From: Bacteroidota bacterium
GTDB taxonomy: Bacteria > Bacteroidota > Bacteroidia > Bacteroidales > JACABE01
Direction: 5' to 3'
Assembly: GCA_013377005.1 (NCBI GenBank)
Contig: JACABE010000013.1
Span: forward strand, 52,015-94,230
DNA: 42,216 nucleotides
This document shows positions 3,337-26,846 of the stretch, in pieces. The translations under genes and the position numbers were made by a program. Within the stretch, counting starts at the first letter, position 1. Each line of letters begins with the position of its first letter. Under the pieces are notes generated by a model that was given only the letters and a program-made list of their open reading frames with translations, was not told where the DNA came from and did no database searches.

Positions 3337-4497
3337 TTAATTCAGAACAGATTTATAAATTTCCATGTATTGTTTCCCAATTACCTCATAGCTAAAATGA
3401 TTTTCTGCATAAGTTCTAATTATAGATGAATCATAATTACGACAAGTATCAAGCATTCTAGTAAGCTCATAAATAAGCATTTTCATATTATGAGCTTCAA
3501 TTAGAATACCATTATCAACATTTACATGTTCAGCTATACCACCTACATTAGTTGATAAAATAGGCAATCCACATGACATAGCTTCTGCTATAACACATGG
3601 AAAATTTTCATAATTACTAAAAAGCAGTAAAAAATCGCATTGCTGCATAATAGCTGCTACTTCTTTAGTATTTCTTTTGCCATGAAAAATAATTTTATCA
3701 GTAATTCTTAACTTATCAATTTTGTTTTGATATTGCTCAAAATTGCCATCGCTTATTACTTCAAGGATAAAATCATTTCTGTATTTTTGGAGTTCACTTA
3801 TTGCAGTTAATATTCCATTAAAATTTTTTTGCTCTTCCGTTAATGATGAAACATGTATTATTCGCTTCATGTCTGTACTAAATGTTTGCTTCTGCTTAAA
3901 TAAACTAATTTCAACTACATTTGGAATAACTTTGTAATTTCCTGTTATTTTAAAGTTCTGCATTGCCAAAGCAAGGTTCTGTGTAACAGGAGTTAATACA
4001 GCAGCTTTTTTTGCAAAGTGTCGGTAAAAAATCACAGAACTATTAGGTTTATTGGCATCTTGAGGCAAATACCCAGTCCAATGTTCAGTAATAATATAAG
4101 GAATCTTTTTTATAAGTTTTAAATAATAAGCAATTAAACCTATTGGTATTAAGATATTTGCATGAATAATTAACGGTTTTGTATTTTTATATATTTGCTT
4201 GAAACCCAAATAGTAAGCAGTAATAATTTTAAAGAATCTCAAAATTGATGTAAAAAAAGGAAGATTTGTTTTTATTTTCTTTAAATAAATAATGTGAACA
4301 TCAAGATTATTATGTTTTTCGACAACATACTCTTTCTTATTATCATAAGCTGAATGAAAACAAACATGAAGAACGCTAACATCAGCATAAAGTGAAACGG
4401 CTTCGGCATGTTTTTCAACAAAATTCCCCAAAGTAGGATTCTCTTTATTTGGAAACCAAGACGAAATAAATAAAACCTTTAATTTTTGTTGATTCAT
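3337..4497 (-). CDS. Glycosyltransferase family 4 protein
   Basis: 386-residue GT-B fold glycosyltransferase. The N-terminal half starts with KVLFISSWFPNKENPTLGNF, typical of the Glyco_transf_4 domain, and the C-terminal half is a Glycos_transf_1 domain. There the EX7E motif (ENFPCVIAE) sits before MSCGLPIL and a GGIAE nucleotide-sugar contact. It probably adds a sugar to a surface glycan in the cytoplasm. It is first in a two-gene unit with the flippase downstream. A TAnnTTTG -7 box on the minus strand (4521 to 4514) lies about 16 bases ahead of the ATG. Donor and acceptor are unknown. Confidence 0.9.
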   Translation of the reverse strand: MNQQKLKVLFISSWFPNKENPTLGNFVEKHAEAVSLYADVSVLHVCFHSAYDNKKEYVVEKHNNLDVHIIYLKKIKTNLPFFTSILRFFKIITAYYLGFKQIYKNTKPLIIHANILIPIGLIAYYLKLIKKIPYIITEHWTGYLPQDANKPNSSVIFYRHFAKKAAVLTPVTQNLALAMQNFKITGNYKVIPNVVEISLFKQKQTFSTDMKRIIHVSSLTEEQKNFNGILTAISELQKYRNDFILEVISDGNFEQYQNKIDKLRITDKIIFHGKRNTKEVAAIMQQCDFLLLFSNYENFPCVIAEAMSCGLPILSTNVGGIAEHVNVDNGILIEAHNMKMLIYELTRMLDTCRNYDSSIIRTYAENHFSYEVIGKQYMEIYKSVLN

Positions 4498-18933: not shown

Positions 18934-20469
18934 CTATTCCTTCACAAATTTACTTTGCATGCTATTAGTATCATTAGTAACTTTTACTATATATATACCT
19001 TTGGCTAATGCTGCAATATTCAATTCTGTCTGTGGCTGTGTTATGTTTTGTTGTAATAGTAGCTTTCCTTGTATATCGTAAATAGAAACAATTGTGTTTT
19101 GTAGGCTTGTTAGTTGTTGGAGGTTTATAGTTAAGTTAGAGGTGGCTGGGTTGGGGTAGATATTTATTGGTTTATTAATGTTCTCTGTTATCCCTGTTGT
19201 AAAAGAAACAAAGTGGGCTTCATAGCGAATAGCATAAGTTACATCATTAATTATATAATTAGAAGAATAAATATCCAAAATGCCTAATGATAATACCCAA
19301 TTGTTATTCACCCATTCTTCATACTTTCCCGTTATTGAGTTTCCGTTGGCATTGTAAGTGTAAGTATTTTTACTAATATTTACCCACACATTATTTTGCC
19401 ATGATTCATATAAATAAGTAAGCATATTACCATAGGCATTGTAAGTGTAAGTATTTTTACTAATATTTACCCAAGCATTGTTTTGCCAATTTTCTGATAA
19501 TGTAGTTAACCTATTTCCATTTGCATTATACGTAGAAGTAGATTTACCACTATATACCCAAGTGTTGTTTTGCCATTGTTCTGACAAATAAGTAAGCTGA
19601 TTTCCATTAGCATTATAAGTACAAGTAGATTTACCACTATTTATCCACGCATTGTTCTGCCAGTTTTCAACTAATTCAGTAAGTTTATTGCCATTGGAAT
19701 TATAAGTATAAGTAGATTTACCACTATTTATCCATACATTGTTTTGCCAGTTTTCAAATATTTCAGTAAGCATATTCCCATTGGCATCATAAGTATAAGT
19801 ATATTTAGTGCTATTTACCCATGCATTGTTTTGCCATTGTTCTGATATTTGAGTAAGCATATTCCCATTGGCATTAAAAGTTAAAGTACTTTTATTGCTA
19901 TTTACCCAAGCATTATTTTGCCAATTTTCGTATAAACTGGTAAGCATATTTCCATTGGCATCATAAGTAAAAGTATATTTAGCACCATTTACCCATGCAT
20001 TGTTTTGCCATTGTTCTTCCAAACGAGAAAGCAAATTTCCAATTGCATTATAAGTAAAAGTATATATTGTGTTATTTACCCATGCATTGTTTTGCCATTG
20101 TTCTGATAAAGTAGAAAGCCTTTTTCCATTGGCATTATAAGTATAAGTTTCTTTAGAATAATTTACCCATGCATTGTTTTGCCAACTTTCTATTTTATTG
20201 GTTAGCACATTTCCATAGTTATTAAATGTTTGGGTTATTCTTTTATAAAGATTATTGCTAATATCAAAGGTAACTATGGTATCATAATTCCAAATGATTG
20301 CATTGGTTGCTTTTTGTTTAAGGCTTGCATGATTAGGAATATTATCAAGTAAAGGATAATTTATTGCTTCCTTGCCTAAGTTGGGTATAGGATGGGTTTT
20401 ATGCTGTGCATTCACAATATTCATCATGCAAATAGCAATCAATAAAACATAAATTCTTTTCATAATCAT
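18934..20469 (-). CDS. T9SS type A-sorted protein made of 29-residue YD-like repeats
   Basis: 511-residue secreted protein. Signal peptide MKRIYVLLIAICMMNIVNAQ (an in-frame ATG six bases upstream is equally possible). From about residue 95 to 400 it is a tandem array of 29-residue units with core WQNNAWVN, then TYTYNANGN and LT. I count ten WQNN copies and one decayed WVNN copy. The pattern recalls RHS/YD repeats. The last 85 residues, with INIYPNPATSNLTI, IYDIQGKLL and a GIYIVKV strand, are a type A T9SS sorting domain, so the protein is expected at the surface or outside the cell. Function is unknown; the TA-ACTTTA sequence upstream is only a near match to a -7 box. Confidence 0.85.
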   Translation of the reverse strand: MIMKRIYVLLIAICMMNIVNAQHKTHPIPNLGKEAINYPLLDNIPNHASLKQKATNAIIWNYDTIVTFDISNNLYKRITQTFNNYGNVLTNKIESWQNNAWVNYSKETYTYNANGKRLSTLSEQWQNNAWVNNTIYTFTYNAIGNLLSRLEEQWQNNAWVNGAKYTFTYDANGNMLTSLYENWQNNAWVNSNKSTLTFNANGNMLTQISEQWQNNAWVNSTKYTYTYDANGNMLTEIFENWQNNVWINSGKSTYTYNSNGNKLTELVENWQNNAWINSGKSTCTYNANGNQLTYLSEQWQNNTWVYSGKSTSTYNANGNRLTTLSENWQNNAWVNISKNTYTYNAYGNMLTYLYESWQNNVWVNISKNTYTYNANGNSITGKYEEWVNNNWVLSLGILDIYSSNYIINDVTYAIRYEAHFVSFTTGITENINKPINIYPNPATSNLTINLQQLTSLQNTIVSIYDIQGKLLLQQNITQPQTELNIAALAKGIYIVKVTNDTNSMQSKFVKE

Positions 20470-20628
20470 AGTTTTAAGTTGTTGTAATTAATCAGAGGTA
20501 AAGTTATACATATTTATTTAAAATAACATAATATTCACAAAATATTTTACAGTTTCTTTAATTATTGATATCCTATATATCATTATTAAATGTATAGGAA
20601 CAAAAATCATATATTTTATACGTAAGCT

Positions 20629-21150
20629 TGGTAGTCATAAAATAGTTGTGGGATGACCACCCACGAACGTAGGTAGCAATAAAACAGTTGTGGGATGACT
20701 ACCAACGAACGTAGGTAGCAATAAAACAGTTGTGGAACGACTACTCACGAACGTATGTAGTGATAAAACAGTTGTGGGATGACTACTCACGAACGTAGGT
20801 AGTGATAAAACAGTTGTGGGATGACTACCCACGAACGTAGATAGTAATAAAACAGTTGTGGAACGACTACCCACGAACGTAGATAGCAATAAAACAGTTG
20901 TGGAATGACTACCCACGAACGTAGATAGTAATAAAACAGTTGTGGGATGACTACCCACGAACGTAGGTAGCAATAAAACAGTTGTGGGATGACTACCCAA
21001 AAACTTTAGTAGTCATAAAACAGTTGCAGGATGACTACTTAAAAACTTTAGATGCCATTAAGCAGTTGCAGGATGACTACTCAAAAACTTTAGTAGTCAT
21101 AAAACAGTTGTGGGACGACTATATAAAAACTTTTATAGTCGTCCCACAAT
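20629..21150. repeat. Tandem array of twelve 42-bp units with hairpin potential
   Basis: Counting GTTGTGGG/GTTGCAGG cores, twelve units fall at 20645 and every 42 bases to 21107 with no insertion or deletion. The typical unit carries ATAAAACAGTTGTGGGATGA, then CTACCCACGAACGTAG. Units 2-9 can pair GTGGG with CCCAC, while units 1, 10 and 12 carry GTAGTCAT paired (fully or nearly) with ATGACTAC. There is no unique spacer, so it is not a CRISPR array. The rest of the 20470-21273 gap shows nothing else I can identify. Confidence 0.9.
21108..21149. repeat. Perfect 16-bp inverted repeat closing the 42-bp array
   Basis: TTGTGGGACGACTATA (21108-21123) is followed after 10 bases by its exact complement TATAGTCGTCCCACAA (21134-21149). 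The right arm is an inverted copy of the repeat core, so the array changes direction here. It may also act as a stop signal for rubrerythrin transcripts, though a T run is lacking. Confidence 0.85.
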
Positions 21151-21273
21151 TATTTTGAGATGCTGTTTGCAAAAGTTGTGTGGTTATTAAAACCTGCCAA
21201 GACTAATGTAAATAGCAATGCATTGGGTTTAACGATGTTTTTCGCTAAGAAACAAATCTGCAATAAGAAATCC

Positions 21274-21846
21274 CTAAAAATTATCAGCTTTTATTTCAAA
21301 ATAAGCCTGAGGATGATCGCAAACAGGGCAATTCATCAAAGCTTTTTCGCCATAATGAACATGACCGCATTTACGGCAAACCCACATAACCTTACCTTCT
21401 CTCTTAAATACTTTAGCTGTTTCGAGATTGTTGAGTAATTTTCTGTAACGATCTTCATGTTCTTTTTCAATAGCAGCAATCAATTTGAATGACATTGATA
21501 CTTTTTTAAAACCTTCTTCTTCGGCAATCTTAGAGAAAGCAGGATACAAATCTGTCCATTCTTCATTTTCTCCATCAGCAGCAGCTTTTAGATTTTCAGC
21601 TGTATTTGATATCATTCCGGCAGGATAAGAAGCCGTAATTTCAACTACACCACCTTCGAGATAGCGGAAAAAGATTTTGGCATGCTGTTCTTCCTGAAGA
21701 GCTGTTTCTTCAAACATCGCTGCTATTTGTTCATAGCCTTCTTTTTTGGCTTGTTTTGCAAAAAACTGATACCGATTTTTTGCCTGCGATTCACCTGCAA
21801 ATGCTTTTAGCAGGTTTTTTTCTGTTTTAGTTCCCTTTATACTCAT
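21274..21846 (-). CDS. rbr: Rubrerythrin
   Basis: 190-residue non-haem iron peroxidase that protects anaerobes from hydrogen peroxide. The N-terminal ferritin-like four-helix domain has AFAGESQAKNRY, EETALQEEQHAKIF and a last helix with AAIEKEHEDRY, giving the diiron ligands. The C-terminal rubredoxin domain has CxxC pairs at Cys157/Cys160 and Cys173/Cys176. The reading frame is open further upstream to 22050, but that part overlaps rdgB antisense; ATG 21846 gives the canonical start and follows a -7 box by 22 bases. Supports an anaerobic or microaerobic lifestyle. Confidence 0.95.
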   Translation of the reverse strand: MSIKGTKTEKNLLKAFAGESQAKNRYQFFAKQAKKEGYEQIAAMFEETALQEEQHAKIFFRYLEGGVVEITASYPAGMISNTAENLKAAADGENEEWTDLYPAFSKIAEEEGFKKVSMSFKLIAAIEKEHEDRYRKLLNNLETAKVFKREGKVMWVCRKCGHVHYGEKALMNCPVCDHPQAYFEIKADNF

Positions 21847-21868
21847 GATTTTTATTTTTTTAATCAAA

Positions 21869-21876
21869 CAAAAATA
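21869..21876 (-). promoter_or_regulatory. Bacteroidota -7 box for rubrerythrin
   Basis: The minus strand reads TATTTTTG, an exact TAnnTTTG match, 22 bases ahead of the rubrerythrin ATG. It lies 22 bases from the opposing rdgB box. Confidence 0.5.
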
Positions 21877-21898
21877 ATCATTAATTTTGGAAAAAATA

Positions 21899-21906
21899 TA
21901 AATTTG
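21899..21906 (+). promoter_or_regulatory. Bacteroidota -7 box abutting the rdgB start
   Basis: TAAATTTG matches TAnnTTTG and ends one base before the ATG of rdgB. If used, transcription would begin at or just after the start codon, so it may be a chance match or a sign of leaderless expression. Confidence 0.25.
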
Positions 21907-21907
21907 C

Positions 21908-22480
21908 ATGGAATTAGTTTTTGCCACCAACAATACACACAAAATAAAAGAGATAAGCCCTCTTATTACCAACAGTTTTCGTTTATTAAGCCTTTCAGAC
22001 CTTAATTTTTTTGAAGATATCCCCGAAACACAAGCCACATTGCAAGGCAACGCTTCACAAAAATCACATTATATATTCGATAGATATGCTATCAATTGCT
22101 TTGCTGATGATACAGGTCTGGAAATAGAAGCTCTAAAAGGCGAACCAGGTGTTTATTCTGCACGCTATGCCGGCGAAGGATGCAATTTTCAGGATAACAT
22201 TGATAAGGTATTGCTAAAAATGCAGGGGATTACCCATCGCAATGCACGCTTTCGCACTGTAATTTCATTACTATTAGATGGAAAAGAATATTTTTTTGAA
22301 GGATATGTAAATGGTAAAATACTTAACGAAAAACATGGCAATGATGGCTTTGGTTACGATCCTATTTTTATGCCCGACAACTACACTATTTCATTTGCAG
22401 AAATGACGTTAGAAGAAAAGAATAAAATAAGTCACCGAGGTATGGCAGTCAGAAAACTTGCCGCATTCCTGAATATATGA
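21908..22480 (+). CDS. rdgB: Non-canonical purine NTP pyrophosphatase (RdgB/HAM1)
   Basis: 190-residue house-cleaning enzyme that hydrolyses ITP, dITP and XTP to monophosphates. Motifs: FATNNTHKIKEI at the N-terminus, FADDTGLEIEAL with Asp67/Asp68, GVYSARYAGE, GNDGFGYDPIF and SHRGMA. The start at 21908 matches the usual N-terminus of the family exactly, so it is secure even though the upstream leader is nearly absent. Divergent from rubrerythrin, with 61 bases between starts. Confidence 0.95.
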   Translation: MELVFATNNTHKIKEISPLITNSFRLLSLSDLNFFEDIPETQATLQGNASQKSHYIFDRYAINCFADDTGLEIEALKGEPGVYSARYAGEGCNFQDNIDKVLLKMQGITHRNARFRTVISLLLDGKEYFFEGYVNGKILNEKHGNDGFGYDPIFMPDNYTISFAEMTLEEKNKISHRGMAVRKLAAFLNI

Positions 22481-26698: not shown

Positions 26699-26846
26699 GT
26701 TGGGAACATTCCACCGAAAAAAGTAAGACTAAAACAGCCATCGGTGACATTCCACCGAAAAAAGTAAGCCCAAAACAGCCGTTGGGAACGTTCCACCAAA
26801 AAAAGTAAGACTAAAACAGTCGTTGGGGACATTCCACAAGCGGTGG
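26699..26846. repeat. Tandem array of about four 41-bp units
   Basis: The CATTCCAC/CGTTCCAC core recurs at 26707, 26748, 26789 and 26830, an exact 41-base period. Units read GTAAGACTAAAACAGTCGTT then GGGAACGTTCCACCAAAAAA with small changes. GGAACGTTCC is a perfect palindrome in the third unit, and CGGTG/CACCG can pair in the second. The TAAAACAG and TTGGGA core and the near-equal period resemble the 42-bp array at 20.6 kb. Confidence 0.85.

Follow-up and report, generated by a model that had tools for sequence, protein, structure and literature searches.

Intergenic tandem arrays of mostly unrelated sequence share a unit length of 41–43 bp in a Bacteroidales genome

Among known systems, the tandem repeats of Porphyromonas gingivalis, with units of 41 and 23 nt, come closest to the arrays described here. 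In that species, repeats of 41 nt are assigned to MITE464/PgRS and repeats of 23 nt to BrickBuilt, periods of 22, 23 and 41 nt are noted in W83, and the 23- and 41-nt repeats have no homology to each other (PMC4596501). The arrays are carried there by MITEs whose terminal inverted repeats are IS5-like, with about 10–20 copies of one sequence (PMC4596501). A further point of reference is provided by the GTAG- and CGTC-tagged REP/BIME elements, which are described as short palindromic intergenic units, often clustered, with presumed roles in termination, in mRNA stability and in supercoiling (PMC3733652). REPs occur, on the same account, as many dispersed copies of one tagged sequence, the GTAG types together with a RAYT transposase (PMC3733652). 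Minisatellites are usually defined by sequence, the length of the unit being treated as accidental, and a literature search with subscription papers mostly outside its reach returned no description of period-locked intergenic arrays of unrelated sequence.

The window analysed here, a stretch of 42,216 nucleotides from a draft genome of 3.69 Mb (92 contigs; the source genome, G000), contains two intergenic tandem arrays. The first, at 20629–21148, is placed on the minus strand, which carries the upstream rubrerythrin gene and gives the stronger predicted fold, and consists of 12 units with a period of 42 bp. TRF reports it at 20630–21121 with a period of 42, 11.7 copies, 87% matches, 0% indels and a score of 625, and a layout at 42 bases recovers the core at 20645, 20687 and onwards to 21107, exactly as a preliminary description of the locus had given spacing, unit number and absence of indels. 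Of the 42 columns, 19 are invariant, mean column identity is 87%, and over 520 bp the units depart from their own consensus by 67 substitutions and 0 indels. Two blocks of unit subtypes can be distinguished, one with CACGAACGT between the arms (units 1–8, 20645–20980) and one with AAAAACTTT in that place (units 9–12, of which units 9–11 occupy 20981–21106), and over the whole array adjacent units are more alike than under random order (p 0.0006). The arms that had been proposed to fold are present, GTGGG and CCCAC with a 7-nt loop between them and, in later units, GTAGTCAT/ATGACTAC flanking TAAAACAGTTG.. or AAAAACTTT stretches. The terminal unit on the rubrerythrin side (21108–21149) forms a perfect inverted repeat of 16 bp, its arms at 21108–21123 and 21134–21149 and its loop 10 nt long; the inner units retain just the inner part of this repeat.

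This array separates the 3′ end of the rubrerythrin gene (21274–21846; Pfam Rubrerythrin, 1.8e-29; a longer mechanical ORF starts at 22050), about 125 bp away, from the 5′ end of a gene at 18934–20469 that has 87-bp coding repeats, an RHS-repeat match and a Por secretion tail, both genes being on the minus strand. Genes resembling the latter, again with 87-bp repeats, adjoin a related element in another genome, G001 (locus L017). Several familiar kinds of repeat were considered for the first array and rejected. A protein-coding repeat is contradicted by stops in all six frames, 5 to 32 in each, with a longest open run of 125 codons that covers the array in part and many amino-acid changes between units; among the arrays described below, units of 41 and 43 bp could not keep a frame. 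In a CRISPR array unique spacers would be expected, and here the entire 42-bp unit repeats with such spacers absent. The window gave 0 matches to known structured RNAs at gathering score (Rfam 15), and the array had no match in either the phage or the plasmid collection at the sensitivity used. A 17-base motif matched three viral contigs; two of these matches fall within long ORFs and the other has no array nearby, and we take all three as chance.

With the P. gingivalis repeats the window shares membership of the Bacteroidales and spacer-free, head-to-tail, noncoding intergenic arrays, at 42 bp in the first array and 41 bp in the second (26699–26837; 3.4 copies by TRF), which the preliminary description had not mentioned; the P. 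gingivalis account has 41 and 22–23 nt together in one genome. The source genome's arrays differ from the elements described there in lacking the MITE architecture and in having, for the most part, few kin or none. Terminal inverted repeats were absent within 120 bp on each side of 11 arrays, the best match lying within the range of 40 shuffles and, for locus L023, equalling the shuffled maximum. Ten or more dispersed copies of one element, as in a MITE family, were likewise not found: a whole-genome search placed the first array at 2 clear places elsewhere (E below 1e-5, plus weak ones), the array of L055 at one other place and that of L052 at three, and the second array matched itself and one weak 23-base stretch and nothing else. 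Stretches of the second array (ACCGA..AAAG and AAAACAG) reappear, by eye, in a 41-bp array of the congener G003 (L103).

The period recurs well beyond the window. In a sample of 833,727 bp (23% of the source genome), TRF rows were dropped for a score under 90, a period outside 15–120, low complexity, or an overlap of at least half with an ORF of at least 150 aa, and the best-scoring of overlapping rows was kept. Sixteen intergenic arrays passed, and all 14 with a period of 25–70 bp stand at 41, 42 or 43 (p 3e-14 for the 40–44 band against a flat spectrum), counting an AT-rich imperfect array with 9% indels (L019:1026) and one whose 42 is 2 × 21 (L049). The two remaining arrays have periods of 21 (L027) and 86, or 2 × 43 (L038). 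The first 20 stretches of the sample come from contigs with better matches to the first array and the second 20 from contigs with weaker matches; four arrays of the filtered set (L049, L051, L052 and L055), all at 42, lie in this second group. Block-shuffling of the 834-kb sample left 0 rows with a score of 90 or more and a period of 15–120. A separate ungapped scan under other filters, whose ORF filter excluded the window's first array, placed 17 of 22 intergenic rows of 25–70 bp at 41–43, two of the 17 being 2 × 21 arrays; the other five rows stand at 25, 48 (2 × 24) and, three times, 63 (3 × 21).

Among the relatives, the sample from G003 (234,195 bp) yielded periods of 18, 22, 39, 41, 43 and 43; L105 has two further arrays, of 42 bp, that are missing from the filtered set, probably through the ORF filter, as a 205-aa open frame crosses them. 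The sample from G001 (236,759 bp), which belongs to the same genus as the source genome, gave periods of 18, 18, 21, 102 and 105, and in that from G002 (339,426 bp) no array passed the filters, the ungapped scan adding a single marginal row (L078) of two copies with a period of 42. Given the other periods in G001 and none in G002, the caller is not biased to 42. Arrays inside and outside the 40–44 band number 17:5 in G000 and G003 together, compared with 0:5 in G001 and G002 (p 0.003), so that G003 is similar to the source genome in its array periods and the G001 and G002 samples are not. More widely, 80 named loci totalling 1.27 Mb, most of them Bacteroidales to judge by their titles, contain nine arrays of 25–70 bp, five of which lie at 40–44 (p 0.001); in 20 stretches from 20 members of the order, one of two such arrays does.

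The arrays that have this period in common are mostly unrelated in sequence. By blast kinship the 14 arrays form about ten sequence groups, a count in which two arrays (L019:1026 and L049) stand without having been put to blast. Within the source-genome sample one loose family consists of the first array, L030, L019:11560, L032:3798 and L023 and another of L051, L052 and L020, the remaining queried arrays having no array kin there. One intergenic region of L032 (1433–1795) contains two distinct 41-bp arrays that directly adjoin, and L032 has another array, of 43 bp, at 3798. Parts of units seem to be swapped as modules, as if hairpin cores were exchanged at constant length: in G003 the arrays L108 and L239 have 22 contiguous bases of the 43-bp unit in common with most of the rest differing, and in L105 (1138–1563) an eight-unit array continues in register into two units that retain part of the unit. 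Similarity between neighbouring units is significant in two of seven arrays tested, and a 42-bp array without dyad symmetry or folding (L033, 16513–16790) shows the opposite, its neighbours differing more than under random order (p 0.99), as if an 84-bp dimer were repeated.

One period in many sequences could be the mark of a mutational ruler, an enzyme or replication intermediate that generates tandem copies of some 21 or 42 bp, for instance through filled-in staggered nicks two or four turns apart, so that arrays would be born with their period and need no function. This main rival would account for one period in unrelated sequences, for the small families and for arrays that form no hairpin, such as L033, and the difference in array abundance between congeners is what the presence or absence of an enzyme would produce. 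However, no candidate enzyme was found, IS200-type Y1 transposases occurring in all five genomes searched, G002 included, and a birth period alone would not explain why later indels are missing amid accumulating substitutions. The ruler is a serious idea that we nevertheless consider unlikely. A link to RAYT was rejected, the genome-level counts of Y1_Tnp matches (10 in G000, 7 in G001, 5 each in G002 and G003, and 3 in G004) not tracking array abundance. Five Y1 (IS200-type) transposase matches in the source genome (C12, C23, C36 and C56) have an equal score of 119.6 bits, suggesting recent copies.

The missing indels can be put in numbers. Units differ in sequence yet nearly all measure 41–43 bases, and so they appear to keep their length as the sequence changes. 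Twelve clear arrays of the source genome hold 269 substitutions and 1 indel, a tally of author-chosen arrays that leaves out L019:1026, L049, L030 and all arrays of other genomes, so that the choice inflates the depletion, and of units that share ancestry, so that the counts are not independent events. The comparison, noncoding DNA aligned with congeners, has 1302 substitutions and 217 gap openings in total (585:88 for G001, 330:53 for G003 and 387:76 for G002) under affine gap costs, which replaced megablast costs (331:104) and are less favourable to the reading that length is held. Indels are thus depleted about 45-fold in the twelve arrays (odds ratio 45, p 2e-15), and the first array alone, at 67:0, departs from the aligned noncoding DNA with p 7e-5. 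Arrays that do contain indels are L117 and L126, from other Bacteroidales, and the AT-rich L019:1026. The changes within arrays also show a transition excess, 158:108 against 459:843 in the orthologue comparison, which fits pairing-preserving change and is confounded by the greater age of that comparison.

The history of the site is that of a local expansion. Against selection on spacing the preliminary description would have counted either copies elsewhere with variable spacing and no conserved arms or a recent slippage-born minisatellite confined to one strain; the first did not appear, related arrays elsewhere retaining a spacing of 41–43 bp, and on the second the relatives tell the other way. 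Ten rubrerythrin loci from G001–G004 carry no 41–43-bp array, and of 58 relatives searched one (G001) has a DNA match to the first array, a version in two parts that has the complete terminal hairpin and follows a gene's stop codon. The expansion is therefore lineage-specific, as for a slippage-born minisatellite. A whole-unit difference in length between species was seen once, at one orthologous site (L019 in the source genome and L017 in G001), where gaps of 22, 12, 5 and 3 bases close together sum to 42, which I read as one unit; the same alignment also has an 18-base gap in the opposite direction.

Such a history is what ordinary bacterial minisatellites (VNTRs) would leave, with their head-to-tail units, block-wise variants and lineage-specific copy number. 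Chance duplication followed by slippage would then give the period no meaning, homogenisation would remove indels, and the shared period would reflect descent from a few old, drifted arrays, an account favoured by the block structure of the units, by the lineage-specific expansion and by arrays that have halves in common (L108 and L239 in G003, and the loose families of the source genome). VNTRs differ, however, from arrays in which unit length is nearly constant across unrelated sequences and indels are almost absent; homogenisation would have to spare substitutions and remove indels (269:1), and about ten groups without blast kinship among 14 arrays would have to keep their period through complete sequence turnover. 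This account appears distinctly improbable.

Dyad symmetry is the second feature of the units. It reaches a shuffle p below 0.05 in 10 of 20 consensus units (combined p 2.5e-9) and is not significant in the other ten. The argument, made earlier from the first array, that spacing is kept more tightly than sequence is supported by the indel depletion and by the period that recurs in unrelated arrays. That this array could also fold as RNA is borne out, the predicted structure being far better than shuffles on the minus strand (−182.1 kcal/mol, z −13.8) and on the plus strand (−157.6 kcal/mol, z −7.9). In its stem, ten departures read A-C on the plus strand, which makes them G-U on the minus strand, and compensating changes are present in eight; in the minus-strand alignment 87% of cells pair, but 8 of the 12 units break one stem pair and 5 break another. 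Shuffles reached the paired percentage in 9 of 500 cases and the number of covarying pairs in 95 of 500. Pooled over arrays, compensated cells number 10 against 4.7 expected (p 0.0075), eight of them in the first array. Hairpins are nonetheless rejected as a universal rule of the class, folding z-scores running from −12.9 to +1.7 across arrays, with L033, L030 and L019 folding no better than shuffles. Hairpins are thus common in the class, and the period is what its members share.

The preliminary description had put forward a phased protein-binding array, or else a nucleoid or replication element, as possible functions. In a phased array a putative protein, perhaps a dimer, would sit on one helix face at each unit and bridge or compact the DNA. 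Strict spacing near four helical turns, the dyad symmetry of half the units and the 19 invariant columns of the first array would suit such a protein, but the units of different arrays have no convincing motif in common, so that a sequence-specific protein could serve few arrays only and a general binder must read shape or hairpins. Among 20 units no 4-mer or 5-mer was common beyond the null, and the only 6-mers above the null's 95% level of 5 were AAAACA (7 of 20) and GTTTTA (6 of 20). We regard this explanation as very unlikely.

A likeness to REP/BIME may lie in short palindromic intergenic units, half of the tested units here having dyad symmetry and several arrays not folding; the difference lies in each array having its own unit in place of a single dispersed family, and for these arrays REP/BIME is an analogy and not a membership. 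The unit of the class is about 42 bp (41–43), close to four helical turns, and in many arrays it combines two dyad modules spaced by about 21 bp. The reading that we prefer, and to which we give about an even chance, is that the first array belongs to a class of intergenic minisatellites spread over the genome. These would be BIME-like and in many cases able to form hairpins, would gain or lose whole units, and would owe their constant unit length to helical or hairpin register. Local hairpin-bearing units would be amplified by slippage or unequal exchange, the arrays growing and shrinking by whole units, and the length would be kept because a unit out of length breaks the helical or hairpin register on which the element depends. 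By analogy with BIMEs, the arrays may serve as structural elements in gene-flanking DNA. At the first array, where five of the six terminator-like sites in 20300–21900 fall within the array on the minus strand (shuffled mean 1.0 for the region), a structured 3′ rubrerythrin transcript is plausible; the array would probably lie in the 3′ part of that transcript, as a putative hairpin string affecting termination or decay. Some arrays sit between divergent genes, where a terminator or 3′-UTR role does not fit. A DNA element that absorbs supercoils may be the alternative function.

In its more general form, tentative and somewhat less probable than an even chance, the proposal is that some Bacteroidales hold the length and not the sequence of their intergenic minisatellite units, built of two modules of about 21 bp, either through length-measuring duplication machinery or through a needed exact helical register of dyad or hairpin modules. 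Unit length is here the trait that unrelated arrays have in common, both in the source genome and in a congener, and further genomes show it again. If true, this would define a class of genome element by phase and independently of sequence, of which the 41- and 23-nt repeats of P. gingivalis would be further members. If it is upheld, what measures 42 bp becomes a direct question, one that would also cover the unexplained 41-, 22- and 23-nt repeats of P. gingivalis.
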